Origin: Pigoraptor vietnamica
Taxonomy: Eukaryota; Opisthokonta; Filasterea
Assembly: GCA_943704525.1 (NCBI GenBank)
Contig: CALSCQ010002546.1
Span: 1 to 44,964, forward strand
Direction: 5' to 3'
Length of the DNA stretch: 44,964 bases
The position numbers were made by a program, and so were the translations under genes. The stretch's first letter is position 1, and the number at the start of each line of letters is the position of its first letter. The notes beneath the pieces are model-generated. The model was not told the origin of the DNA and searched no databases. It saw nothing but the letters and a program-made list of their open reading frames with translations. Below are positions 276 through 27,000 of this stretch, in pieces.

Positions 276-1864
276 AGTTCATCCGCTCCGAGTTTCTCAA
301 GGCCGGCGCCCGCGAGACGGTCGAGGGGATCCGCGATTCCACGGCCGCACAGCGCGTGCGCGACCAGGCCTCCAAGACGCTCCTCATGCTCAACCACCCC
401 TGTGAGTCCCTTGACTTTCCCACCACACAACACACAACGTGCGCTCGCCGCCAGTCACTGTGCTACGCGCATTGTTTGCAGTGAATGGGCCTTGCGTCAT
501 CGCACTCTGTTACGCACCCGCACATTTGTCTGCTGTATCGCTCTTTCCTCATCCCCACCGCACGCACAGTCGATCCTGCAAAGCTGCAGCCCATCGTGTC
601 CAAGTCGCTGAAGCGCAAGCGAATGGCCGAGCTTGCCGCACAGACAGGCGCGTCGGGACCTGCGCCCCAGGCACAGCCGGCAGCGGCGGCGCCGGCGGCC
701 CAGGAGAAGGCGGCTCCAGCAGCGGGCGGTGCGGCGTCGTCTGGCGGCGTGCAGTCGGTGTGGCTCAAGTGCTTTCTCGACACGGACGTGCGGCTCGTGC
801 GCGTGAACGTTGACGTGTCCTATGCCGAGCTGTTTGAGAAGATCCGCCAAAAGTACGGCCTCAACAAGCACGACGGCATCAATATCAAGGTAGCGGTGGA
901 CTGTGGCGGTTGTCGGCGTGTGTGGACGTGCGCGTGGGAGATGTACTTGACTGCCCGTCTCTCTTATGCCACATTTGAAAGCACCCGTCTCGTCGGGCGA
1001 GGAATGCGTTACGCGCACTCTCACACGCGCGTGTTTGCACTGTTCGCCCCCGCAGTACCGCGATGCGGCCAACGACATGATCCCGATGGACGACGAGGAC
1101 GCGATGGAGTATGCGTTCATGTGCCACGGCGAGCGCGTCGCTTCCAACGACAGTGTCAAGATGGAGCTGATCATATCGAAGATCGCCGGGGGCAACACGG
1201 CAAAGGCACCGCCCCCGCCCCCGGATGTGCGCCGTGAGTGTCCCCCCCCCCATCCCTCTTCACGTCGTCGCAATTCGTTTGGAGCCACCCGTTTTGTCTT
1301 CAGCGCAACGCTTCGTTTACTCCGATTCGTGCACATGGAAATTGGAGCTCACACTCGTTTCCTCCCACAGCGGCCGAGGAGAAGCCCCCAACAGAGTACG
1401 CGTCGGTGCGCGACCACCTTCTCTACGAAATTCGCAAGGGAGCGACGCTGCGCAAGATCGACCCGCTGGAGATCAAGGAGCATAAAACCGTCGAGGAGCC
1501 CACGGACGCCCGGTCGCAGCTGTTCCGCGACATTCGCAAGGGGGCGAGCCTCCGATCGGTGCGTGATCGCTCTCCGTCTCTACGTGGCGGTGGAGGAAGA
1601 ACATATCTCTATGGTTTACATTGATCGCCCTCTGCCTCCTGTGTTTCGATCCATGTTGAGATCCGTGTAACTGACGTGGTGGTCTTGCGCTTGCGTGTGC
1701 AGGTGGATAAGTCGACGATACGCGACAGGAGCGAGCCACGCCGCATCGCTCTTGCCGACGTGGCGTTTTCCAGCGATGGCTCCACCATCGCGGAGAAGAT
1801 GCGTAAGGCGCGGCGGCAACTGTGCACGTCCGTGGTGCTCGAGAGTGACGACGACTGGGACTGA
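276..1864 (+). CDS. PB1 domain, tandem WH2 and central-acidic tail protein (probable Arp2/3 nucleation-promoting factor), 5' partial
   Basis: Exons 276-401, 570-889, 1056-1233, 1371-1558 and 1703-1864 join in phase (1,0,1,0) to a TGA stop; the first coding exon(s) are missing or lie in the repeat-rich 1-275. About 323 residues are visible. After a basic linker and an Ala/Pro-rich stretch comes a PB1 domain (roughly residues 104-180) with a beta1 lysine (LKCF) and an acidic OPCA loop (YRDAANDMIPMDDEDAMEY). Then two WH2 actin-binding motifs, each with IRKGxxLR (nt about 1402-1461 and 1508-1561). The C-terminus has an amphipathic IAEKMRKARRQL segment and ends ESDDDWD, the order of a WASP-family V-V-C-A module in which a Trp near the end of the acidic tail contacts Arp2/3. 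Family knowledge: VCA modules deliver actin to Arp2/3, and PB1 domains pair head to tail with other PB1 partners. Inference: PB1-recruited actin nucleator. The single-Trp tail is short, so Arp2/3 activity is less sure than actin binding. Confidence 0.8.
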
Positions 1865-2229: not shown

Positions 2230-3928
2230 TCACATGTGCGCGCCGCTGTACCACGCGAACTTCCAGGCGCGGGCGTTCGCGAGGATGGGCGATCGCTCGC
2301 CAGTCTCGTTGGCGTTCGTGGGCTGGTATTGCCCCATGGAGATGACGCACGAGTCGGGCGGGAGTGCCCTCTCGCCGGTTACAGTGACAGGCCCGGTTGC
2401 AGCCGTCGACGCGAGGACGGCCGGGGCTGAGGCAGCCGTGCGCGACGACCTCTTCAGACGATGCGTCCAAAACAGGAGGCCGACAATCGCGGCGATGAAC
2501 GCGCAACACATGGCGACGACGGCGATCTCGACATCGCTCGTGACGGAGCGGGTGAACAGCGGGAGGGTGGGCGAGTCGGGATTGACGGAAGCGACGAGCA
2601 CCGCCGGAACTGGCGCGAACGCAACGATGGAATCGCTGTCGAAGAGGAACGGTTTTTCCAGTGTCAGTTGGTAGCTCGAATGGCACGTGCATTAAAAAGT
2701 TCCCAACTGCTCGGCTGACGATAGTAGGCATCGATGCAAGCTCAACAACAACTGAGTGTAGCGAACTGCCAAGAGAGACTCACTTGAAAGGCACGCTGAA
2801 GGGCGGCGTTGGGAGCCCCTGAGTGTTGTAGATGGCGCACTGGGGGAGGTCGGAATACGCATAGCGCACACCTGTCGCGTGGCCAACGTTCTCGGGAATT
2901 GAGACGATGACACGATGATGGCCGTCCAAACCAGTCGCAATGTGGGCGCCCGTGGCAGCGACCCATTCGCCGTTTTCGTTGGCGACGTCAAAACCAGCCG
3001 AGTTCGCGCAGCACTCGACGCAGGCCTCGGTGCCGCGAAGGGCAATGCCTCCCGCGCTGGTCTCGAAAAGGAGCTCGATGTTGCGCACGCTCCCATTCGC
3101 ACCTACGCCCGAGGAAAGGCCAGTTGTGAGCCGATTGAGCACACAGAAGAACTGAGATTACTGTAGAGGCTCGGCTGACTACTGTTGCGGGACGACTGAC
3201 AGCGACCGACAGCCGCTCACCTTCGCCGAACGGCACCGCGGCCATGCGGAACTTCGGACCTTCGACGACGACGTCCGTCTCGTTGTATACGAGGGCGCGT
3301 GCGAGCAGCGCAAGACGCGCGCCCAGGGTTTGCTTGTTGCGCGGATGGATCGACTCCAACGGTGAATCGGGGTCACTGCGAGCGATTGGCACAAGAGGGA
3401 CCGTCAGTGCCTAGCATGAAGGAGCCGGCCTACGTTTCAGCGCGCGCATACACTCGTTTCCACGCGAACGAGCAAACAACCGCATAATGCACACACGGGG
3501 AGACAACAGGGCTCTTACCTAATATCGAATGTCGCGACCATGCCAACGTTCGGGAGCGCTACTGCGTGCTGCACGCAGGCAAAAGCAAGCGCCACGTCAG
3601 AGAAGTCACTCTAGGGCCGCGCGAACTACACGGCAAACGTTCTCAGTCTCCGAACACTCACCGACTGCGCCTCCCGCACGCCGGAAAAATCAGTGTAAGG
3701 CTTGCCAACGCCACTGAGCTGCACAACCATGAAGGGGAGGTCCGTCGCGTTGACGAACTTGACGCGCATGTCGACGATGAAGGCCTGCAGCCGACACGCG
3801 TACGTGTCGACGGAGAATCGGTTCTGCTCCCCCTGGTACCTGAGGGCAAACAGGAGAGGCGTATGAGCATGCATGCATGTATGAGGGGCGTGAGAAAAGA
3901 GACGTATGAGTGTGCGCGTGAGTGTGAC

Positions 3929-3965
<37 letters not shown>

Positions 3966-5579
3966 TGTGTGTGTGAGTGTGTGAGTGTGTGTGTGTGTGT
4001 GTGTGCGTGTGTGTGGCGTCTATGTGCGCGCGTGTGTGCGTGTATCTTTGTACACGCAAGCCAGTTGGCCGACTCGACGTACCAGAGGAACCCTTTGATG
4101 GCGAGTGGCAGGAAGGGCGCAATCATGCCGTTGAAGAGCTTGACCGGCGGAGCGCTGCAAAACGAACGCAACATTAGCCATGCGCTTATGCACATTCCAC
4201 TCGCACTTCTCGTCCCGTGAGACAAGCGAGCACGCCGACAGACACCCACTTGGTCGTTACGTTGATGAAGCCGCTGATGCCGCCCTTGCACTGGAACAGC
4301 GCTTCGGGGGAGCTCCAGGACTCGATGGGAGTGCCTATGACGGCGCTGCAACGCAGAAGACATCGGAGCGGGTGAGAACGAGGGCGCTCTGCGGCAAACG
4401 GCATCACCACTTCAATTCAAATGTGCGCGCACCTTGTGATAAGTCCCACGATGGCGTTGGGCCGGCTGCGGATCAAGTCGCGCCCGAAGAAATAGCTGTC
4501 GCAAGGAGCGAATATATCAGCTGTGTGGCGCACGACGCAGGCTAACAACTGTGTGCAGTGTATAAATATCGCAAAGACTCACCATGCTGCTGTATGTGTG
4601 TATGCGTGTGTGTATATGCAGTGTATGCGTGTGCGCGAGCGCGCGCGCGTGTGTGGTGTGCAGTGTATGTGTGCGTGCGCGTGTGCGTCTGTGTGTGTGT
4701 GCCGTGTATTTGTGTGCGCGCAAACAATCGCAAGGGCTCACCATGCCGCGCTCGCGTAATTGAACGGCCACTCGCCACCGCTGTGGATGACGTCCGGGCT
4801 CGAAACGCCCCACTTATACGGAGCCTGGGCATGTGAAGCGACTCTACATGAGCCACGCGTGCGCACGCAGCCTTCAGCATGCATGCAATTTTCACTTGCG
4901 TCAGTTCCGTCACTCACCGCAGAGTCGACGTCCCTCTGGGGACTCCCTGACCACGAGTCGGCGGCCGTGAACAAGCGCAGGTTCGGATAGTTAATCGAAT
5001 CGAGCGTCTCCCGTGTCGCGTTGAAGGTGAAGCCCACCGACAGGCGCATGTTGGATTGGCCCTGTGAGCGGCGCAGAGTCAGAAAATCGGACGCGCATCC
5101 TGCTCACCCAACTGTGCACGAGACCCACCGAGCAGAAAAAGACGTCGCCGAACATGACATTCGAGAACTTGAGTTCGGATGGCCCGGCGGTCACGCGCAG
5201 AGTGTAGGGACCGCCGTGCTCCATGGGCGCAAGCACTACAGACCACTGGCCGTCGTCCGTGTCGGCCGAGATGGTCGTGACAGTCTGCCCCGCAATCGAA
5301 ACCCTGACCTCCGTGCTACGAACGGTGGAGCCTGTGGACAATAAGCCACGTCAGTCAGTGCACATTGAAGGCGGGCGTTATGCAGCTTCGTTAAGCTTGC
5401 TGCGTGACGCGCAGCCCACCCCAAATCTGCGCTGCCTTCGGGAAGCCCTGAAGCACCATGTTGTCCGAAAAGAAGGAGGGCATCCACAGGCGAGTGAGCG
5501 CTGCGGAGCCATGCGCCCGACTGCACAGAGTTAGCATGACCAGGAAATAGACGACAGTGAGGCAACGTGAGAGACCCAT
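2230..5579 (-). CDS. SIAE: Sialate O-acetylesterase-like SGNH hydrolase with C-terminal membrane anchor
   Basis: Twelve phase-consistent exons on the minus strand (5420-5579, 5129-5331, 4918-5061, 4742-4824, 4433-4495, 4261-4345, 4083-4138, 3662-3839, 3519-3568, 3221-3375, 2784-3102, 2230-2674) give about 646 aa. It starts with a signal peptide, followed by SFFSDNMVLQ and IWG typical of the family. The nucleophile block CSGQSNM is at about residue 120, WYQGEQN at about 265 and the catalytic-histidine block SIHPRNK at about 350. Family function: removal of O-acetyl esters from sialic acids in secretory or lysosomal compartments. Odd points: the usual QGES motif is QGEQ here, and the last exon encodes a membrane segment (about residues 549-569, AVVAMCCAFIAAIVG) followed by a cytosolic tail, whereas the animal enzyme is soluble. 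Two 3' splice sites are AAG (exon 7) and GAG (exon 12), chosen because they alone keep phase. Substrate specificity is not readable from sequence. Confidence 0.85.
3922..4015. repeat. GT-rich microsatellite in SIAE intron
   Basis: Nearly pure GT dinucleotides with occasional GA interruptions fill most of the intron between exons 7 and 8 of the esterase gene. A second, impure GT tract (about 4596-4720) sits in the intron between exons 4 and 5. Confidence 0.9.
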
Positions 5580-6183
5580 TTCTGCGTGCAGTGTAAATAA
5601 CTCGGCGATTGTGAAGTCAACGGCAAAGTTCGACAAGGTAACAACAAAACTGAGTGCTTTCGCAGTTGCGCGCAAGGACATCGCATTTATAGTCTCCCCA
5701 TCTGCAAGAGCAAGAGAGTGGTCGTTCACAAAAAGTCTGTTTTCAGCGTCAGCGCCGTGCTGGGGAACTCTCCACGCTGTGTCGTGCTGTCTTTGAGGTC
5801 ACCCTGTCTTGACCAAAATCGGTAGTCCGGACAGAGAAGGGACACGTGCCAAAAATATCACTCACCAAATAAGGCTAAAATTTAAAACTAAAAATATAAA
5901 ACCAATCCGATGCATGGAAATTGTTTCTAATTATAGAGCATGTCTCAGCCACAAATTGGGATGTGAGAGGGCCTATATTTAGGTGGTAGTAGACCAATTT
6001 TATGACGTCCCTATGGCGTCAATGTTGATCTCCCTTGGAAACGAGCCTTCCGCTGAGTGGCTTTTCAGTGTTCATAATAGTGACAGCAGTCCATTGTTTA
6101 TTGTAGCAGCTGTTCCTCGCCGTCGCGTCGTCAATGGCACCGTGTCGATGACTCGAGGGGGCCTTTTTTATTAACGGTCTCGC
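5580..6183. promoter_or_regulatory. Divergent intergenic promoter region with MEF2-type box
   Basis: About 600 bp separate the start codons of the divergent esterase (-) and TSNAXIP1-PDE (+) genes. The stretch 5860-5990 is conspicuously AT-rich against the GC-rich surroundings and contains CTATATTTAG at 5973-5982, an exact match to the MEF2 consensus YTA(A/T)4TAR. No coding exon was recognised. Promoter function is inferred from position and composition. Confidence 0.5.
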
Positions 6184-7725: not shown

Positions 7726-9829
7726 TGCTGTTATCGTGTGTGATGTGGGATGTGTGTTTGTGGTGTGCGTGGAAAGGGCGCATGTTGAAAGGGTTCTTGT
7801 TTGCGCAGCTTGCGCGATACAAGCGGACGGTGGACCAACTGCGGCGCGACGAGCACGAGAAGTTTGTCCCTGTCGAAGTCAGAGATGAACTGGACGAACG
7901 GCTCAAGGAAAGATCGGTGCGTGCTTCTCAGTTCTTCAGCAGTTGGCGGGAGGAGGAGGGGCGGTGGGGGAGGGGGGGGGGGGGGGGAAGGGGGGGGAAG
8001 GTGTTGTTGTTGGGCTGTTTGGGTGCCCTTTCTTTGCATGTTTTGTGACACTTTTTGCTGCGAATGCAACCGCAGCCGCTGCCCCGATTGCGCGTCCCAC
8101 GGCAATCACCGCGGAAGACATTCTCTCGCACCTCAAGGCGGACCCCTCGCTGCTTTCGCGCGTCGTGAAGGACCTCGCGAGTGCCAAGGACGTGCAGGCA
8201 TGGGTCACGGCCCACCCGGACGAGGCGGGCGAACTGAAGCTGCCGAAGCCCGTGCAGGGCCGGCGGTCGCTGCAACCCAAGCGCAGTGACTCGTCGGAGC
8301 GCAGCGGGGATGGAGAGGGCGAGGATGAGATTCGGCCGCTGCGGAAGAGCGACAGCGTGCCGACGGCGTCGCAGCCGAACATCCGCAAGATGTCGAGCAC
8401 CTTCGAGCTGCGCATCCAGAAGAAGCAGCTGCAGGAGACTCTAGACGGCGAGATTGAGAAGCGCATCGCCCTGCTGGAGGTTGCGCACGACATTCACGAG
8501 GAGCTGGACACGCCGAAGCTGTGCATGAAGATTATGCAGTCGGTGGGCAAGCTGCTTGACGCCGAGCGGTGCACGCTCTTCCTTGTCGACAAGGAGAACA
8601 ACGAGCTCTTTTCGTATGTCGTCGACACGCGCACGCGCAAGAAGTCGGTGGCGCCAAACAGCGTGGGCCTTGCGACGGACGTCATGCGCGTCCCGATGGG
8701 CGTTGGCATACACGGGCACGTCGCGCAGACTGGCGAGGTGCGTGTCCAATCTGCGATTCCCCTCCGCTCCGAGGCACTTTTGTTCTGTTTGCGTTGACGC
8801 CGTGAACCGCGCCACGTGGACTCGCTGTGTTTTGCTCCACCACGCCACCCCCCCTTACAATGCATCTGTGTCAATTCGGCGCAGGTCGTCAATCTGTCGG
8901 ACGTCGCGAAGGACCCGCAGTTCTCGGCGGACTTTGACGCCGACGGCCTGCGCGTGCGCAACATGCTGACGATGCCGATCAAGCACAAGGACGAGGGCAT
9001 CATGGCCGTCGCGTCCATCGCCAACAAGCAGGGCGACCGCCACTTTGACGAGTACGACGAGGGCATCTTCGAGAACTTTCTCGTGCTCTGCAGCATTGGC
9101 CTGCGCAACGCCAAACTGTACGAGCGCACGGTCGCCGCGAACAAGCAGCGCGAGACGCTGCTGCACCTCGCCAAGACCATCTTTGAATACGTCGAAATCG
9201 ACGAGCTCGTCAAGAAGATCATGTCCCTCGCGCGCGGCCTCTGCATGGCCGAGAGGTGCGTAGCCCACATGCCCACACCGAACCCTCGAAAGCGCTGCCG
9301 TCTGTCTTCTTTGCCTCCCTGCATTTTGCGCGAATTGGTCTCTGAGCGTGCATCCGCTGCAGGTGCTCGGTGTTCCTCGTAGACAGCGAGAACAAGCAGC
9401 TCTACTCGAAGGTGTTTGACCTCACCGAGGAGGAGAAGCAGAAGACGGACACGCCGGTGAGTGCGCAGTTGCGCTTTAATCACCATCGAAAGTACAGCGG
9501 AACAAGAACAGCGGTGATGTGCGTCTCTGACCAATGCCTCGGCTGCGCAGCAAAAGGAGATCCGCTTCCCCCTGTCCAAGGGCATTGCCGGTCACGTGGC
9601 CACGACGGGCAAGTCGGAGAACATCCAGGAGCCCTACAACGACCCGCGCTTCAACTCGAAGGTGGGTTGGGCTTTGTCTGGTTTGCTTCTGTGAAGTGTG
9701 TCTGCTTAAGACCATGGCAGCGCAGTGGGTGGTGTGCATTTGCGTGATACATATTCAAAACTTTGTGGAAATGCATATGTGGCCTGCGCATTGGTTCACT
9801 CATTCACACACACACACACGCACCCACCG

Positions 9830-9861
<32 letters not shown>

Positions 9862-11660
9862 CATCTCGCAGATTGACGAGGAGACGGGCTTCAAGACGCG
9901 CAACATTCTCTGCATGCCCATCACCGGCGCGGACCACAACGTCGTCGGCGTGGCGCAGCTCGTGAACAAGATTGGCAAGCACGGTTTCACGCGCGAGGAC
10001 GAGGACCTCTTCATGGGGTTCGCCGTGTACTGCGGCATTGCGCTCAACAACGCGCAGCTCTACGACAAGTGCTTCAAGTCGGAGCGACGGCTGAAGGTCG
10101 CGATGGAGCTGCTCTCGTACCACGCGCAGGCGCCCGAGGAGGACGTCGAGCGACTCAAGGGACGGCTGACAAAGATGGTGAGTGTGCCGATATCTGCACA
10201 TTGCGCCCTTGGAGGAGGCTTGAGCCTTTTGCAATAGGAGGGAGAGAAAGTACATGGGCGTTGGGAGGGTGAGTGTCCGCAGGGCAGATGGTCGCTGACA
10301 CGAAGCGCGCGTGGCCGAGTGCAGAACCACAACGTGCACAACGAATACGGCCCCGTGGAGAACTTTTTCTGGTCGTCGTGGGCGGTGGCGGACGATGACA
10401 CGTGCGCCGTCGTGTTTGGGATGTTCGAGGACCTCGGCTTCACCGAGCAGTACAAGATATACCGCGACACGCTCTGCCGCTTTGTGCTCACCGTGCGCAA
10501 GAACTACCGCAAGGTGCGCTACCACAACTGGCAGCACGCGTTTGGCGTCAGCCACCAGATGTACTCGATCATCAAGTCGTCGCCGACGGTGCGCGATTCG
10601 CTCTCCGAACTCGAGAAATTCGCGATGATGGTGGCGTGCGTGTGCCACGACGTCGACCACCGCGGGACGAACAACAGCTTCCAGCAACAGGCGAAGAGCC
10701 CGCTCGCCGAGGTGTACGGCACGTCGGTCATGGAGAAGCACCACTTTGCGCACACGGTGACCATCCTCAACACGGACGGCCACAACATCTTCGAGTCGAT
10801 CCCCAACTACGCCGAGACGCTCGCGTACCTTGAGGACTCGATTCTCGCGACGGACCTCGCGCTTTACTTCAAGAACAGGGACAAGTTCAAGCAGGTACGT
10901 TCGTGGGCGACGAGTGTGTGGTAGCGGGCTGTGCGCAGAGCCCTTGCGGCCGTGTGACATGCGGGGTGAGGCTGACCGTATCACCTATGCGTTCAGATTG
11001 TGACGAACAGCTCGTTCGACAAGAGCAACAGCGAGCACCGTTCGCTCCTCCGCGGCATCCTCATGACGTGCTGCGACATTTCTGCGATTACCAAGCCGTG
11101 GGAGGTGCAGCAGGGTGAGTCTTCGCATCCCCCCCCCCCCCCAACGCGCACACACCGACCACTGGCTGTCGGCGCGTCTGACCCTCCGCACCCGCAGACA
11201 TCGCCAAGATTGTCTACTCCGAGTTCTTCGAGCAGGGCGACATTGAGCGGCAAATGGGGCGCACGCCCATTCCCATGATGGACCGCACCAAGGCCGAGGA
11301 GCTCCCCAAGATGCAGGTGCGCCCGGTGTCCGTGCACTGCCCTTGTGTGCGGGCGGTGTTGCTGTGCGGTCACTGTGCCGGTGTGCGTCCTGAGCCCGCT
11401 GCTGCGCGCAGGTGGGCTTCATCGACTTCATCTGCCTGCCGGCCTTCGATCTGCTCTCGAAGGTGTGCCCCGAAACGGCGCCCCTCGTGGACGCCGTCAA
11501 GGCGAACCGCGAGCGGTGGCAGGGCATGGTCGGGACGGAGGCTGCCGAGGCGCTCAAGCGAGAGCTCGCCACCATTCCCATCAAGGTGCCCTCCATCACG
11601 AACATTTCGGCGTCTGCCACAAACATATCCAAGTCGTCGACGAGCGTCTCGAAGGCATGA
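6184..11660 (+). CDS. TSNAXIP1-type N-terminus fused to GAF-GAF-PDEase (cyclic nucleotide phosphodiesterase)
   Basis: Fifteen exons: 6184-6462, 6541-6672, 6762-6931, 7103-7179, 7326-7555, 7809-7920, 8076-8737, 8885-9255, 9363-9456, 9551-9661, 9872-10177, 10325-10894, 10997-11114, 11198-11316, 11412-11660; about 1199 aa in one phase. Residues about 94-200 ([33 protein letters not shown]) match the TSNAXIP1 N-terminal family and continue as coiled coil. Two GAF domains follow (about 475-620 and 660-830), each with the NKFDE signature ([26 protein letters not shown]). The catalytic domain (about 905-1160) carries [22 protein letters not shown] and the invariant glutamine in [11 protein letters not shown], so it should hydrolyse cAMP and/or cGMP. 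The weak point is the junction of exons 6 and 7: phase needs donor GTGCTT at 7921, not the stronger GTGCGT at 7917. If that is wrong, a coiled-coil gene (6184 to about 7920) and a PDE gene with unknown 5' end would be separate. The first intron is GC-AG. Confidence 0.75.
7640..7722. repeat. Pure (GT)n microsatellite, about 40 units
   Basis: An uninterrupted GT dinucleotide run of about 80 bp sits inside intron 5 of the TSNAXIP1-PDE gene, preceded by eight T residues. Confidence 0.95.
7969..7999. repeat. Poly-G tract
   Basis: Long G homopolymers (about 19 then 9 G with AA between) lie in the intron between exons 6 and 7 of the TSNAXIP1-PDE gene. Homopolymer length is a likely assembly error site, but it falls outside the exons chosen. 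Confidence 0.9.
9806..9862. repeat. (CA)n microsatellite in PDE intron
   Basis: A CA-rich dinucleotide tract ends 10 bp before the 3' splice site at 9871 of the PDE gene. Confidence 0.9.
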
Positions 11661-15614: not shown

Positions 15615-17086
15615 CTACGACTCGTATGGCACAGGGATGACCTGCCCCTCGCCACGCTCCTCGAGCTCCGTCAGCAGTGCCTGGAATGCACGTGACACGG
15701 GTCCCACTCGCCCGTCGCCCACGGGACGGCCATCGAGCCGCGTCACGCCGAGACACGAAGCCCCGCCGAAGAAAATGATTTCTGTCGCCGCCCGCGCCGC
15801 GTCAATGTGCACGTCCTCAATCGCCACGCCACGAAGAGTGCCGGCAGCGACGAGCCTACGCGCGCGGGATAGGGGTCAATTGCATTCAACTGCATGCACA
15901 CGCCCACCCTCGCAACGTACCTGTCGGCAAATTTCAACAGCGAAGTGACGGTGATTCCCGTGAGAATGCCGTCGAACTTCGGGTGGCGAAGCACGCCGTC
16001 CGCGCCCACCACCGCCACGTTCATCACGCAGCTCTCCCCAATGTACCCGCGCTCGTCCACGTGGATGCCGAAGGTCCCTCCCTTCTCTGCGGCACGCGCA
16101 CACACGAGCGCGTTGATGAGGTAGTTGGTGCTCTTCATGCGCGCGAGGGCGGGGGGCTTGAGGGGGACTTCTGCCGCGGTCACCGTCGCCTCCGATATTC
16201 CGCTCTCCGCCAGCGCCTTCTTGTCAACAAAGAAGTCGTGCGCCACGGCGTAGAAGACGCTGCCGCCCTTGCACTCCTGGAGTGCGACGTACTATCAATT
16301 GGACTGACATACGCGCGACACACACACACACACACACACGCGCACCCCCCCCCCACACACACACACACACACACTCTCTCTCTCTCTCTGTCTCCCTCGC
16401 TTTCTCCATTTCATCCGTAGAGACGCACCGCGGGCGAAATCCCAAAGCCGCCGGGGCCGACAGAGAGGTACATGCGGATCATGACGCTGTCGCGCTTCTT
16501 CGCAATGGCCGCGAGTCGCAGCACAATCTCGCGCATTCGGTCGGTGCCAAAGGGAAGAGGGATGTGCGCCATTTCGGCCGACGCATGGAGGCTGCGCGAA
16601 CAGCACGTGAGGAGGGGTGTCTGCTCACAGTGCTGATGGTTTTACGCACCGCTCCAGGTGCTGGTCCAGTTGGAAGAGCTTGCCGTTCGAAATGGTCGTC
16701 GTGTCAAAAACAGCATGGCCCCTGTGCACCTGCCACGGGAATTAGAACTGCGCATACTGGCACATGTACACGCACGCACACACACACACACACACATACA
16801 CGCTACAAAAGCACACATAACACATGCACACATGCACACACACATGCACACGCTACACACACACACACACGCACGCACACACACACACAAATACAATACA
16901 CGCACACGCGCACAGGGCCGCTACCATGTGGTCGTCCAGGGGCGCCACGAACAGCGCGGGGTCTGTGATGAACCCCCCCAGGAGGCTCGAGTACATGGCG
17001 TGGTAGGCCGTGCGTGCCTTTGCGTGCAGTCGCTCGTGCAGCCGCGCCACGACCTCCTCCGCCGACAGTATGGGATCGCTGGCCAT
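15615..17086 (-). CDS. Class IV (fold-type IV) PLP aminotransferase, D-amino acid/ADC-lyase-like
   Basis: Five minus-strand exons (16925-17086, 16650-16729, 16429-16591, 15921-16291, 15615-15855) in matching phase encode about 338 aa. Family landmarks are DDHMVHRGHAVFDTTTI near residues 52-68, the PLP-lysine block ARMKSTNYLINAL (Lys about 188), and the C-terminal TEIIFFGGASCLGVTRLDG. The N-terminus resembles the plant enzymes annotated as D-amino-acid transaminase or aminodeoxychorismate lyase more than mitochondrial branched-chain aminotransferases. Likely reaction: transamination of D-amino acids, or pyruvate elimination from aminodeoxychorismate in folate synthesis; the sequence alone does not decide. 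No targeting peptide is evident, so it is probably cytosolic. It is divergent from a class III aminotransferase across 342 bp. Introns carry CA/CT microsatellites (16319-16388, 16770-16912). Confidence 0.87.
16319..16388. repeat. (CA)n, C-run and (CT)n compound microsatellite
   Basis: A compound dinucleotide repeat with a central C homopolymer lies inside the intron between exons 3 and 4 of the class IV aminotransferase gene. A second CA-rich tract (about 16770-16912) lies in its first intron. Confidence 0.9.
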
Positions 17087-17906: not shown

Positions 17907-19696
17907 GTTGTTCTCCTTCTGCTACATGGTGTTGAGAGCTGAATGGAACAGAGAAAGGCCCGTGTGTCCAGTGCAAGTGACCCATGCGCTTACCTTCGTC
18001 GAACTCCTTCGCTCCGCAGGACACTGCCACCCGAAAGTCGTCGCCGCCGTGCGCGAACAGGCCGGCAAGCTCCTCCATGGCCAGGTAACAGGGCGGGACA
18101 GATGTCTCGCTGTGAATGAGCGCCTGACTTTGAAGTGCGCTCACATGTCTGCACGCACGCACGCACGCACGCATCCCTCTGTCGCAGGTGAATATTGTGC
18201 TGCACGAACCCATGCTGACGCTCATTGAGCGCCTTCTCAAGATCGTCCCCAACGGACTCGGTGCGTTGCGCCTGTGTGTCGCTGTTACTTGCCGCATCGT
18301 CCTCGCTGCAACCTGCGCTGACTCTTTCGGTCGCTGTCTCCTGCCACTCCATTCCTCCCGTTCGCACACGCACGCACACAGACACGTTCTTCTTCTGGAA
18401 CTCTGGTGCGGAGGCAGTGGAGGCGGCCATTAAGCTCGCGCGCCACTACACCGGCAAGCCCAACATCATCGTTTTCCAGGGCGGTTACCATGGACGAACG
18501 ATCGGTGGGCGGATGGGGCATGGGAAGCACGCGCTCACGCACAGACACTCTCGCGCGCGCACACACACACGCACACACACATTGCATACTGGAGGGACGT
18601 ATTGATAAGTCATGAGAGAGGAAGCAATGGCACATGCGTTAACCGTGAGGCATGCGATGATAAGGGCGCTGATGCGATTTGTCCTGCGCAGGCACCATGA
18701 GCCTCACGACGTCCAAGTACATCTACCGCGCGCGTTACGGCCCGCTAATGCCCGGCGTGTTCGTGTCGCCGTTCCCCTACCTCCGCCAGATGCCGCCGGG
18801 CGTGGTGCGTGCTTTGTGTTACCACTCTGTTATCTGCTTGCACACACAAGCCTAAGCGCTTGCACACCCCTCGCAGAGCCAGAAGCAGGCGACGGCGTAC
18901 TGCCTGGAGCAGTTTGAGCTGCTTCTCCACCAGCAGTCGTCGCCCGCAGAAACGGCGTGCGCCATCATGGAGCCCGTGCTGGGCGAGGGCGGATACGTTG
19001 AGGCCCCTCTCGGTGGGTACTGCCCTGTGCCGAAATCCCGCTTCATGCATGCGCGCTGACGGAGTCCACTGTTAAACAGAGTTTTTGCGTGGCATACGCG
19101 ACATCTGCACTCGACACGGCATTCTGCTGGTCGCCGACGAGGTCCAGACGGGCTTTGGGCGCACGGGCAAGATGTTCGCCGTCGAGCACTACGGCGTCAC
19201 GCCGGACATTCTCGTCATGGCGAAAGGACTTGCGTCCGGAATGCCCCTCTCGGCCATCGTCAGCTCGCGCGAGGTGTGCTCCAAGTCGCCCAAGGGCAGC
19301 CAGGGAGGCACGTACGCGGGGAATGCCGTGTCGTGCGCCGCGGCACTCGCGACCCTCGACGTCTTTGAGCAGGAGGGCCTACTGAGCAATGCCAACGCGC
19401 GCTCTCAGCAGCTGCGCGAGGGCCTTGCGCGCATGCAGCGAAGCGGACTGCCGCTCGCCGAGGTGCGAGGGCTGGGGCTCATGGTCGGCCTCGAGTTTGA
19501 CCGGCGCGCGCCCGAGGGGTTCGCGGGAAAGGTCGCGGGGGAGTGCGCGAAGGACCGGTTGCTTGTGCTGCCAACGAGTGCGTTTGAGTGCATGCGCCTC
19601 ATTCCCCCACTCAACGTGAGCGAGAGCGAGTGCGCGACGGCGCTCGGTGTGCTTGAGGGCGCCATGGCCCGCGCAGCAAAAGCCGCCGGGTTGTGA
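17429..19696 (+). CDS. Class III PLP aminotransferase (4-aminobutyrate/ornithine-type), mitochondrial-like
   Basis: Seven phase-consistent exons (17429-17840, 18020-18084, 18188-18260, 18382-18504, 18692-18804, 18877-19012, 19080-19696) give about 512 aa. The N-terminal 90 residues are Arg/Ala/Ser-rich with few acids, as in mitochondrial presequences. Core motifs: [65 protein letters not shown], the PLP-lysine block [15 protein letters not shown], and [19 protein letters not shown]. These define subgroup II (class III) aminotransferases; the last two motifs look most like bacterial-type GabT 4-aminobutyrate aminotransferases. Alternatives are ornithine/acetylornithine or beta-alanine-pyruvate transaminase. 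Probable role: GABA or related omega-amino acid catabolism in mitochondria. Intron 1 contains a (CT)n run (17862-17902). Confidence 0.88.
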
Positions 19697-23725: not shown

Positions 23726-24063
23726 ATACGGAGGGATGCGCTGCGCCAAACGGGGGTGGCCTGTTTTGCCTGTCCAGCCAATCGCAGCAGAGTGCTTTTG
23801 CTCTATGTGTGCGAGAGATGCCAGCACTACCCCCGTGGGCCTTCGTTCATAGCACTGCTTGCACACTGCAAGGCAAGCGTGGAGAGAGGGACGGCGTAGA
23901 GTGTTCTTGCCGCAGTAGAGTGGGACGTGGGGGGATCCTCAGTGGTCGGCAGTGGTCGAATAGCCGTGTGATTGCGGCGCATTCCACTGGTACTGTGCCG
24001 CACTGCAGCGCCTCACCGCTTCACACGCACTCTCCGGGGACTATGGGCAGCGTCGTCTGAGAA

Positions 24064-27000
24064 ATGGCGGAGACAACCAAGGACGCAGGTGGGTGTGCCT
24101 TGCAGTCATGTCGTTTTCAGTCGGTGATCGGGCACTGTCGCTGTTGTGTTTCAGCGTCGACGATGCCTGTGCTTTCGATTGCGACGGAGGGAATGATTTG
24201 CGCACCGTCCGAGCGTGGAACACGCGCGTCGGCTGTTTGCTCATGCTGCGGCGGCCGTTCGCGCGCAGTGTGTTGCGCCTGCGGCAACCGGTTCGAGGGC
24301 GGCGCCAAATTTGTGTTTGCGCTCGAGAAGAACTGGCACCATGCGTGCTTCGCGTGCGCGGCGTGCAACCAGCCCCTCACCGACTTTGTCGTGCTGGAGG
24401 GGAAGGCGTATTGCACGAAGCACGCCGAGGAAAAGCAGCAGGCCGAGTATGTCGCGTCGTGCAAGCGCTGCGACGAGTGCAACACGCCGCTCACGGGGCT
24501 CTTCTTCGTGCGCGACGGCAAGAACTTCTGCTCGGCGCATCGCAAGCCCGCGAGCAAGGGCCCCCCATGCGCCGCGTGCGGGCTTGCGATCGATGGCCCG
24601 GCGACGCTGGCGCAGGACCGCCGGTTCCACATGGACTGCTTCCGCTGCGTGCGGTGCGAGCGGCCGCTGGGCACGGGGGAGCCGTATTACGACGTCGAGG
24701 GGGACCCGTATTGCGAGAAGCACTACCGCGCCGCGTTTTGCCAGACGTGCGACGGGTGCGGGCGCACGATCGAGGGCGACCACGTGAGCGCGCTGGACAT
24801 GCACTTCCACACGCACTGCATATTCTGTGTGCGCTGCTCGGCGCCCATTCTGCCCGGCGCCAAATTCGCCGTCGTCGACGGGAAGTTTGTGTGCGAGCCG
24901 TGCAATGCTGACACGCACGCCCCACCGCCGACTGCGCCCGTGCCTGCGGTCCCCGTGACAATCGATTCGCCTGCGCCGCCGGAGGACGACGATGACGAGG
25001 ACAGCGACGACGAAAGCGCGCCGCCCGTCGGTGCGCGCGTGTGTGTGTGTGTTTTTGTGTGTGTGGTCAGTGCGTATGTATGTGAGCGAGAGTGTGAGTG
25101 TGTTTGTGTATTCGTATGACGCGTTGCGTGTGTGTGCATAGGGGCGCAATCGGTGCGTCACTGGCGCAATTGCTGTGGTTGCGCTCTGCGTGAGACATGT
25201 GAAGCACCGAGTGTTCGCTGTTGCGTGTGGCCCTGACACGCGGCGACCGCAGCCAGCGCCACCGAGGCCTTTCGCATTGGGCGAATTCGCGCCTACAGCC
25301 AAAAAATTGCGCCGTTCCTCGAAGTGGGGAAGGTCGTGGGTGGGTGCCGGTGGTGTCGCTTTTGCCTGTGGCACGTGACTTGTGCGTGCGCCGCATTCGC
25401 TAACGGTGTGTGTGTGTGTGCGCGCGCGCGTTTCGCAGCATTGCCCAACGAGGAGAAGGAGCAGCCGATGACACTCGAGCGCATGCTAAAGCTGATGGAC
25501 CTCGGTGGGTGGCCGAGCTGCTTGTGAATCGCGATGTAACGTGCACTGCCACCACTTGTCTTTTCTCTTCTGTTCGCTGCATGATCGATTGCGGTTCAAC
25601 CCGTTTGGCACATGGAACTGAGGCCCTTTCTGTTCGCTGATCACGTGATGGTGCAGACGTTGATCCTTCGGCGGTCATTGATGGCTCACGCGCGCGTAAC
25701 ATGGACAGCGACGACGAAGAAGACGAGGGTGAGTAACAGGCCACTCGGGATTGCGTATGGCCTGACACTGCCACCAGCCCTTGCTTACCTCTTGCCTCTT
25801 CAGACGGACCGACGGGGCCCATTTCACTGCCGGGTCTCATGTCGCTCTTGGACGTCGGCGAGTGTGAGTGCAATGCGTGGCTTTGTGCGTGTGCAGAGTC
25901 GCCTTGACGTAGCTGGAGGAAGGGCGAGGCTACTAGTTAGTTAATCGACCGTCTTTTGTGTGGCAGCGAACTCGAAATCAGCGCGAAGTTCGACGGAAGA
26001 GAGCTCCACAGCCACGCCCCGTGGGTGTCATTGCGCCTGCACTGTTTTCGCTTTAAGCGCTCCTGTTGTTCACTTTGTGTGTGCGACTGTTTTTCACTGT
26101 ACTATGTGCGACTGCCTCTCACTTTGTGTGCGACTGTTTTACACTTTAATGTGTGCGACTGTTTTTCACTACTGTGTGCGACTGTCTCTGTCGTCGCCTG
26201 TTTGTTCCACAAACTGCTTTGATGGGCATCCCCTTGTACTCACGCAATCGTCGCTCTATGTGCCGTCGCTTGTTCTTTTCTTCATTGGGCTGTCGCTTTG
26301 TTCTTATCTTCTCGCACATCCTTGCTCTCCCCATTGCGCAGCGCTCCCGATGGAGTCCCATTACGCATCGCTTTCATTTCCCACGGAACAGCGCAAGAAG
26401 TCGGCCGATCGCCCGACCAACCTGCAGAACATTGAAGAGGAGCCGGTGGGTACCTTACAGTCATCCACTCGCGCACGCAGCGCACACAGGAGGCTTGTCA
26501 TGTGGTCAAAGCGCGCCGATTTCATTTTCCCGCACAATGCTGCGACCGCACGGATGAATCAATTGCTGATCCCCGACCCTCTCTGCCCTAATCACACACA
26601 TACACACACGCGCGCAACCCCTCCTACGTCTCAGACCGAGTACGCAATTCCCATGCACCGCCGCCCGTCCCTCGCTTCGAGCGACCCGGACCTCGTTCGC
26701 CGGCGCAGCGTGTCCATGCCAAACCTCCCTCTCGACCGCCAGCGCGCCGAGGGGCAGAAGGAGCCCCCGCCCAAGTCGCCCCTGGGGCCCACGTCGGACC
26801 GCTCGCAGCTCTCCCCCCGTGCGAAGGACGGCAGCCCGAAGGACTTTCGCGAGCGCGCCAAGTCGGCCAACCAGCGCCCCAAGGTCACCTCGCGGCTGTC
26901 CGGGTGGTTCCAGCGGCTCGTCAGATCGGACGCCGCTGCGGATGCCTCGCCGCAGGCCGCGCCGTCGCCCGCGTCGACCGCGCCACCGCCCGGTGCACTG

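Follow-up and report, generated by a model that had tools for sequence, protein, structure and literature searches.

The window analysed covers contig C1055 from end to end (44964 bases, N count 0). The genome to which it belongs is rich in introns and comprises 1395 contigs with 32.5 Mb in total. At its left end (276-1864, + strand) lies a gene whose five exons were spliced, in our model, into one open frame encoding a partial protein of 323 residues and ending at TGA 1862-1864. All exon borders are GT-AG, the phases agree across the four introns (137-168 bases), and the GC3 of exons 2 to 5 is 0.79, 0.86, 0.84 and 0.80, respectively. The features of the gene are the following.

276..401, + strand: exon 1, entered from an off-contig intron or 5' region; charged stretch FIRSEFLKAG...; GC3 0.93
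570..889, + strand: exon 2; basic patch SKSLKRKR (599-622), Ala/Pro-rich linker, first half of PB1 with the lysine of LKC (764-772)
1056..1233, + strand: exon 3; second half of PB1 with the acidic (OPCA) loop (1056-1112), five-proline stretch APPPPPDV (1206-1229)
1371..1558, + strand: exon 4; WH2-A (1409-1459) and most of WH2-B (from 1511)
1703..1864, + strand: exon 5; end of WH2-B, linker, central-domain-like helix STIAEKMRKARRQL (1781-1822), acidic tail ESDDDWD (1841-1861), stop TGA

The coding region of PB1 is itself cut by the intron 890-1055, and the frame of exon 4 has no ATG in the exon or upstream back to the in-frame stop at 1235, so that the WH2 exon cannot begin a separate gene in that frame. 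For these two reasons the two-gene reading was rejected with fair confidence, and the PB1 and WH2 parts most likely belong to one gene, as judged from the genomic sequence. An error in the gene model, by which PB1 and WH2 exons came from two genes or the contig was misassembled, is very improbable: the 5' end of the model lies beyond the contig, but the four introns are in phase, the gap between exons 3 and 4 is only 137 bases and the window is free of N.

As the window is the entire contig, any additional 5' exon lies off it. The frame of exon 1 contains no ATG from the stop before 128 up to position 386, and its high GC3 suggests that the coding sequence extends from an earlier, off-contig exon; an internal start, at ATG 386 in exon 1 or at the KRKRM ATG in exon 2, is possible. 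The exon 1 piece (FIRSEF...AELAA), helical by impression only, had no match in Pfam or PDB. An origin of exon 1 in the last part of a helical domain of ENTH/ANTH/VHS type, also an impression, was rejected as unsupported. Profile matches of ENTH, ANTH and VHS in the genome (E up to 1) were located on nine contigs, the nearest to a contig end at 2.3 kb (C661), and six-frame local alignment of exon 1 with five ENTH/VHS loci gave a best score of 50 (100 shuffles: mean 40, maximum 54). No missing 5' exon fitting by eye was found at the ends of the next-numbered contigs, C1054 and C1056. Apart from itself, the stretch 1-275 had two matches in the genome, both to its repeat-like part 174-265 at 76-77%; diverged copies of this part are on C1061 and C134. 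The contig starts with a run of G, and a repeat of the CTGTCTCACGCT type stands ahead of exon 1.

Other genes were observed downstream in the window. The next one, at about 2230-5800 (- strand), runs in the opposite direction to the PB1-WH2 gene; its stretches are presumably sialate O-acetylesterase-like, and three open stretches of it had no Pfam match at E 0.001. The remaining ones are listed below.

8798-10921, + strand: exons of a GAF-domain cyclic nucleotide phosphodiesterase (GAF 7.6e-9, PDEase_I 5.1e-44)
15746-16291, - strand: aminotransferase class IV (2.6e-12)
19076-19693, + strand: aminotransferase class III (3.6e-57)
24061-25116, + strand: frame with three LIM domains (1.4e-38)

Domains of the encoded protein

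The original prediction had described a PB1 domain with both the basic lysine and the acidic OPCA loop, two IRKGxxLR WH2 motifs, an amphipathic helix and a DDDWD terminus, and had proposed profile searches as a check. In the whole 323-residue protein, PB1 and WH2 were both above their Pfam cut-offs. The PB1 domain reached 25.4 bits (E 1.4e-5), and 28.8 bits as a piece alone, for a cut-off of 23.6. In an alignment of five rows (the PB1 studied here, two other PB1 domains of the same genome, PKC zeta and TFG), K5, D11, D52 and A65 were invariant, so that the basic and acidic pairing faces both look present. The lysine of LKC and the acidic YRDAANDMIPMDDED loop were aligned with those of other PB1 domains, and both features are thus borne out. 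We take the strand-1 lysine to denote type II and the acidic OPCA loop type I PB1 domains, and this domain has both. Its nearest PDB matches were TFG (E 0.031) and PKC zeta (E 0.071), both weak.

WH2 (PF02205) was matched in two stretches of the whole protein at E 2.2e-8 (33.9 bits, cut-off 23.1). As separate pieces, WH2-B was above the cut-off (26.2 bits) and WH2-A below it (16.7 bits, E 0.0059). Both share IRKGA[TS]LR, in agreement with the two motifs described. The nearest PDB match of the WH2 part was N-WASP (E 0.31). A match to PF23229 (DUF7067), under its own cut-off and overlapping WH2, was disregarded, and NCBIfam gave no match.

The C-terminus reads ...STIAEKMRKARRQLCTSVVLESDDDWD. Its acidic stretch, ESDDDWD followed by the stop, is short, has its W near the end and is of the kind foreseen. 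According to the account of Kollmar et al., the central domain consists of three large hydrophobic residues with three residues between each, followed by a doublet or triplet of K/R and by one last hydrophobic residue; an acidic end, usually with W, comes next (PMC3298513). The helix studied here lacks the three-hydrophobic pattern and has a looser form, with two hydrophobic residues, an R/K doublet and a hydrophobic residue. The WAVE of the same genome has the two-hydrophobic form too, and its WASP the three-hydrophobic one. Among 5000 shuffles of the linker, the looser form appeared in 18.6% and the stricter form in 2.5%. The amphipathic character claimed for the helix turned out to be weak, its hydrophobic moment being equalled by 7.4% of 20000 shuffles, which is not significant; by the same test the helices of WAVE (46%) and WASP (84%) from this genome were no better. 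The loose fit and the non-significant moment make the helix compatible with a central domain and not a proof of one. A stronger argument comes from the acidic W end.

Searches with the tail gave matches that were taken as chance. Those in PDB comprised 11 distinct chains, WD40 and designed chains plus one kinase (PkwA, in a WD40-type stretch), nearly all of WD40 type through VAFSSDGSTIA. A viral contig (L084) was matched at 48% over 40 residues (E 2e-6, relative to the candidates only) within an open stretch of 243 residues; the match includes the 8-residue search stretch IALADVAF, and no WH2 or acidic W end was seen in the frame as printed. Among genome contigs, 87 stretches fitted a search pattern and 0 were confirmed.

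Arp2/3, WH2 and PB1 genes in the genome

The DNA pattern GAYGANTGGGANTRR, which encodes D-[DE]-W-[DE] followed by a stop or TGG, was searched in the 32.5 Mb of the genome and gave 8 matches, versus 3 for a control pattern. TGG followed in 3 of the 8 and a true stop in 5, as listed below.

Gene studied here: ESDDDWD end
C1305:3190: WASP, with WH1 matches at 1298-1596, PBD piece (2.9e-19), polyproline and end DDDEWD; parts in order on one strand, splicing between them not demonstrated
C1305:106362: SCAR/WAVE, with WH2 (5.3e-6), end DDEWE and a YFFDLW stretch, presumably the end of the SCAR-homology domain, hence the assignment
C522: coronin-like gene, PF16300 (8.5e-15), end EDEWD
C479: no visible gene, stop shortly upstream in frame; looks like chance

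Three of the four other true-stop matches (WASP, SCAR/WAVE and the coronin-like gene) thus represent families that bind Arp2/3, coronins with such acidic W tails included. With 5 true-stop matches in 65 Mb of strand, the number that would fall by chance no more than 400 bases from any one WH2 is about 3e-5. The WH2 profile search of the genome, which missed the WH2 motifs of the gene studied here, gave at least 7 matches, and one of the seven, SCAR/WAVE, was followed by an acidic W end. Among the seven are also the matches on C881, C1273, C1094 and C203. On C650, at about 17.9-19.2 kb, an IMD (E 1.8e-32) is followed by polyproline and WH2, in a gene that is MIM-like or possibly WAML-like. WH1 was matched not only in the WASP on C1305 but also at a second locus, on C438 at about 6.7-7.1 kb.

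Arp2 and Arp3, the two actin-related subunits, are present in the genome, as identified by protein similarity. The query for Arp2 and ARPC4 consisted of the yeast proteins. The Arp2 gene, on C408, was matched in four exons with 62-73% identity and a fifth with 61% and one TAG inside; the exons joined by hand gave E 1.5e-210 to Arp2 chains, and the exons on C1115 gave E 9.9e-153 to Arp3 chains. Other matches of the yeast query were to C1063 (44%), where the actin-like gene was taken as actin, and, more weakly, to C1115 and other places. Yeast ARPC4 had no match in the genome, and the profiles of ARPC2 and ARPC4 (PF04045 and PF05856) had none in this genome or in any of 14 control genomes. Because the profiles were silent in all 14 controls, and because Arp2 and Arp3 are clear, this result was not read as evidence of absence; it may reflect a limit of the search, an assembly gap or a real loss.

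The PB1 profile search of the genome gave at least 10 matches at E up to 1, 4 of the 10 above the PB1 cut-off, one of these only with its neighbours in frame; the count is a lower bound, since the intron-split PB1 of the window was missed. Among the matches found, the closest to that PB1 was on C1022 (36% identity, E 0.001), where the PB1 exon reached 57.7 bits. The PDB matches of the exon just upstream were p67phox chains only (4 distinct sequences, best E 1.6e-5), and both exons probably form one gene. This region, at about 29.8-31.5 kb, suggests that the protist has a p67phox-like gene and an NADPH oxidase under regulation. The PB1 of C666 has an NBR1-type Ig domain (5.3e-12) nearby, and the frame of C915 combines PB1 with a UBA-like match below the cut-off (E 0.046). 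The PB1 genes of C1022, C666 and C915 may be considered candidate partners of the PB1 studied here; the coupling of the activator to p62/NBR1, PKC or NADPH oxidase, as originally proposed, is an inference. All three are leads only. For p40phox, contact with the actin skeleton has been reported (PMC2938475).

Interpretation and comparison with known systems

The protein is best explained as a putative WASP-type Arp2/3 nucleation-promoting factor with PB1 in the place where WASP has its GTPase-binding domain, a reading to which we assign a probability of about 0.7. Its binding, its activity and the role of its PB1 are, we infer, as follows. The WH2 motifs would supply actin; Arp2/3 would be bound by the central and acidic parts; and PB1 would pair head to tail with itself or with another PB1 protein and in this way cluster or place the activator. 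Clustering is plausible as a switch because the recovered part is without a GTPase-binding domain, whereas the WASP of the genome has one: GBD/CRIB (PF00786) had no match in the recovered 323 residues, and the WASP piece matched at the value given above. WH1 and IMD had no match in the recovered residues either, the 5' end being off the contig.

Alternatively, the protein could regulate actin monomers or filaments through its two WH2 motifs, by sequestering, delivery or Cobl-like nucleation, with an acidic tail that binds Arp2/3 weakly, only holds it or inhibits it. The tail of arpin, for instance, inhibits Arp2/3. The loose fit of the central domain is in line with this, as is the acidic W end in a gene outside the WASP kind, the coronin-like one; in addition, 6 of the at least 7 genome WH2 matches lie on contigs without an acidic-W-stop match, examples being polyproline-WH2 on C975 and IMD-polyproline-WH2 on C650, and other forms of tail are possible. 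Against it, the order WH2-WH2-basic helix-acidic W end agrees with the WWCA arrangement, and the one WH2 of the genome profile search that precedes an acidic W end belongs to SCAR/WAVE. We regard a monomer or filament regulator as unlikely.

The protein might also belong, in divergent form, to one of the described subfamilies (WASP with WH1, WAWH or WAML), with its defining N-terminal domain on the missing exons and PB1 as an insertion, which is compatible with the WASP-type activator proposed here and bears on its classification. The basic patch ahead of PB1 resembles the basic region ahead of the GBD of WASP, and the N-terminus is missing; on the other side, the recovered residues are without a GBD/CRIB match and the genome has a separate WASP. 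This assignment appears rather improbable. More doubtful still is the idea of the PB1-WWCA protein as founder of its own WASP subfamily, with branching switched by head-to-tail assembly of PB1 and not by a Rho GTPase, for example through pairing with the p67phox-like PB1, so that one membrane site would produce both branched actin and superoxide.

What chiefly distinguishes WASP-family proteins from one another is their N-terminal modules, which set the time and place of branched actin formation. A PB1 module in a WASP-type activator would tie Arp2/3 activation to the assembly of PB1 polymers or heterodimers, as in autophagy receptors, aPKC polarity and NADPH oxidase, a route undescribed for Arp2/3 activators in the open-access literature searched. 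The protein also allows one to ask whether oligomerisation alone can stand in for release by a GTPase.

In the sources consulted, members of the WASP family are known by their C-terminal VCA tail (PMC4276913) and divided by what precedes it (PMC3298513). The N-terminal parts vary in amoebae and other protists, as in WAML and WAWH (PMC3298513), and in mammals too, as in WHIMP (PMC7112243). In the portions of PMC4276913 used here, PB1 (p62, Nbr1) and VCA (WASH) are treated apart, and the term PB1 has 0 occurrences in the main texts of PMC3298513 and PMC7112243. In accordance with the claim that no activator with a PB1 domain had been described, none was found in the open-access literature searched. 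The Arp2/3 activator with a PB1 domain originally proposed is, as a prediction, well supported by its anatomy and by the Arp2, Arp3, WASP and SCAR/WAVE genes of the same genome; its newness lies in the domain arrangement and not in the mechanism. From sequence data, PB1 with a WASP-like tail is a new arrangement of the WASP kind, in one genome and with the 5' end missing.

The likeness to N-WASP/WASP (WH1-basic-GBD-polyproline-WH2(s)-C-A) consists of the tandem WH2 (as in N-WASP), the central-domain-like helix, the acidic W end and the upstream basic patch and prolines; the protein differs in having PB1 instead of GBD and a very short proline run, with WH1 unseen as the 5' end is missing. With SCAR/WAVE it shares WH2, the acidic W end and a two-hydrophobic, central-domain-like helix of the same form as that of the WAVE of its own genome (VASILMRRMAIEM), whereas two WH2 motifs and PB1 are present and the recovered part has no SCAR-homology domain or long polyproline. 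PB1 is shared with p67phox, aPKC, TFG and p62/NBR1, the strand-1 lysine and acidic loop having been compared with PKC zeta and TFG; to our knowledge, none of these proteins carries WH2 or an Arp2/3 tail. WAML (IMD-WAID-polyproline-VCA) and WAWH (GBD-VCA) are, as described in PMC3298513, protist members of the WASP family with an altered N-terminus on a VCA tail; the N-terminal domain in their case is IMD or GBD.
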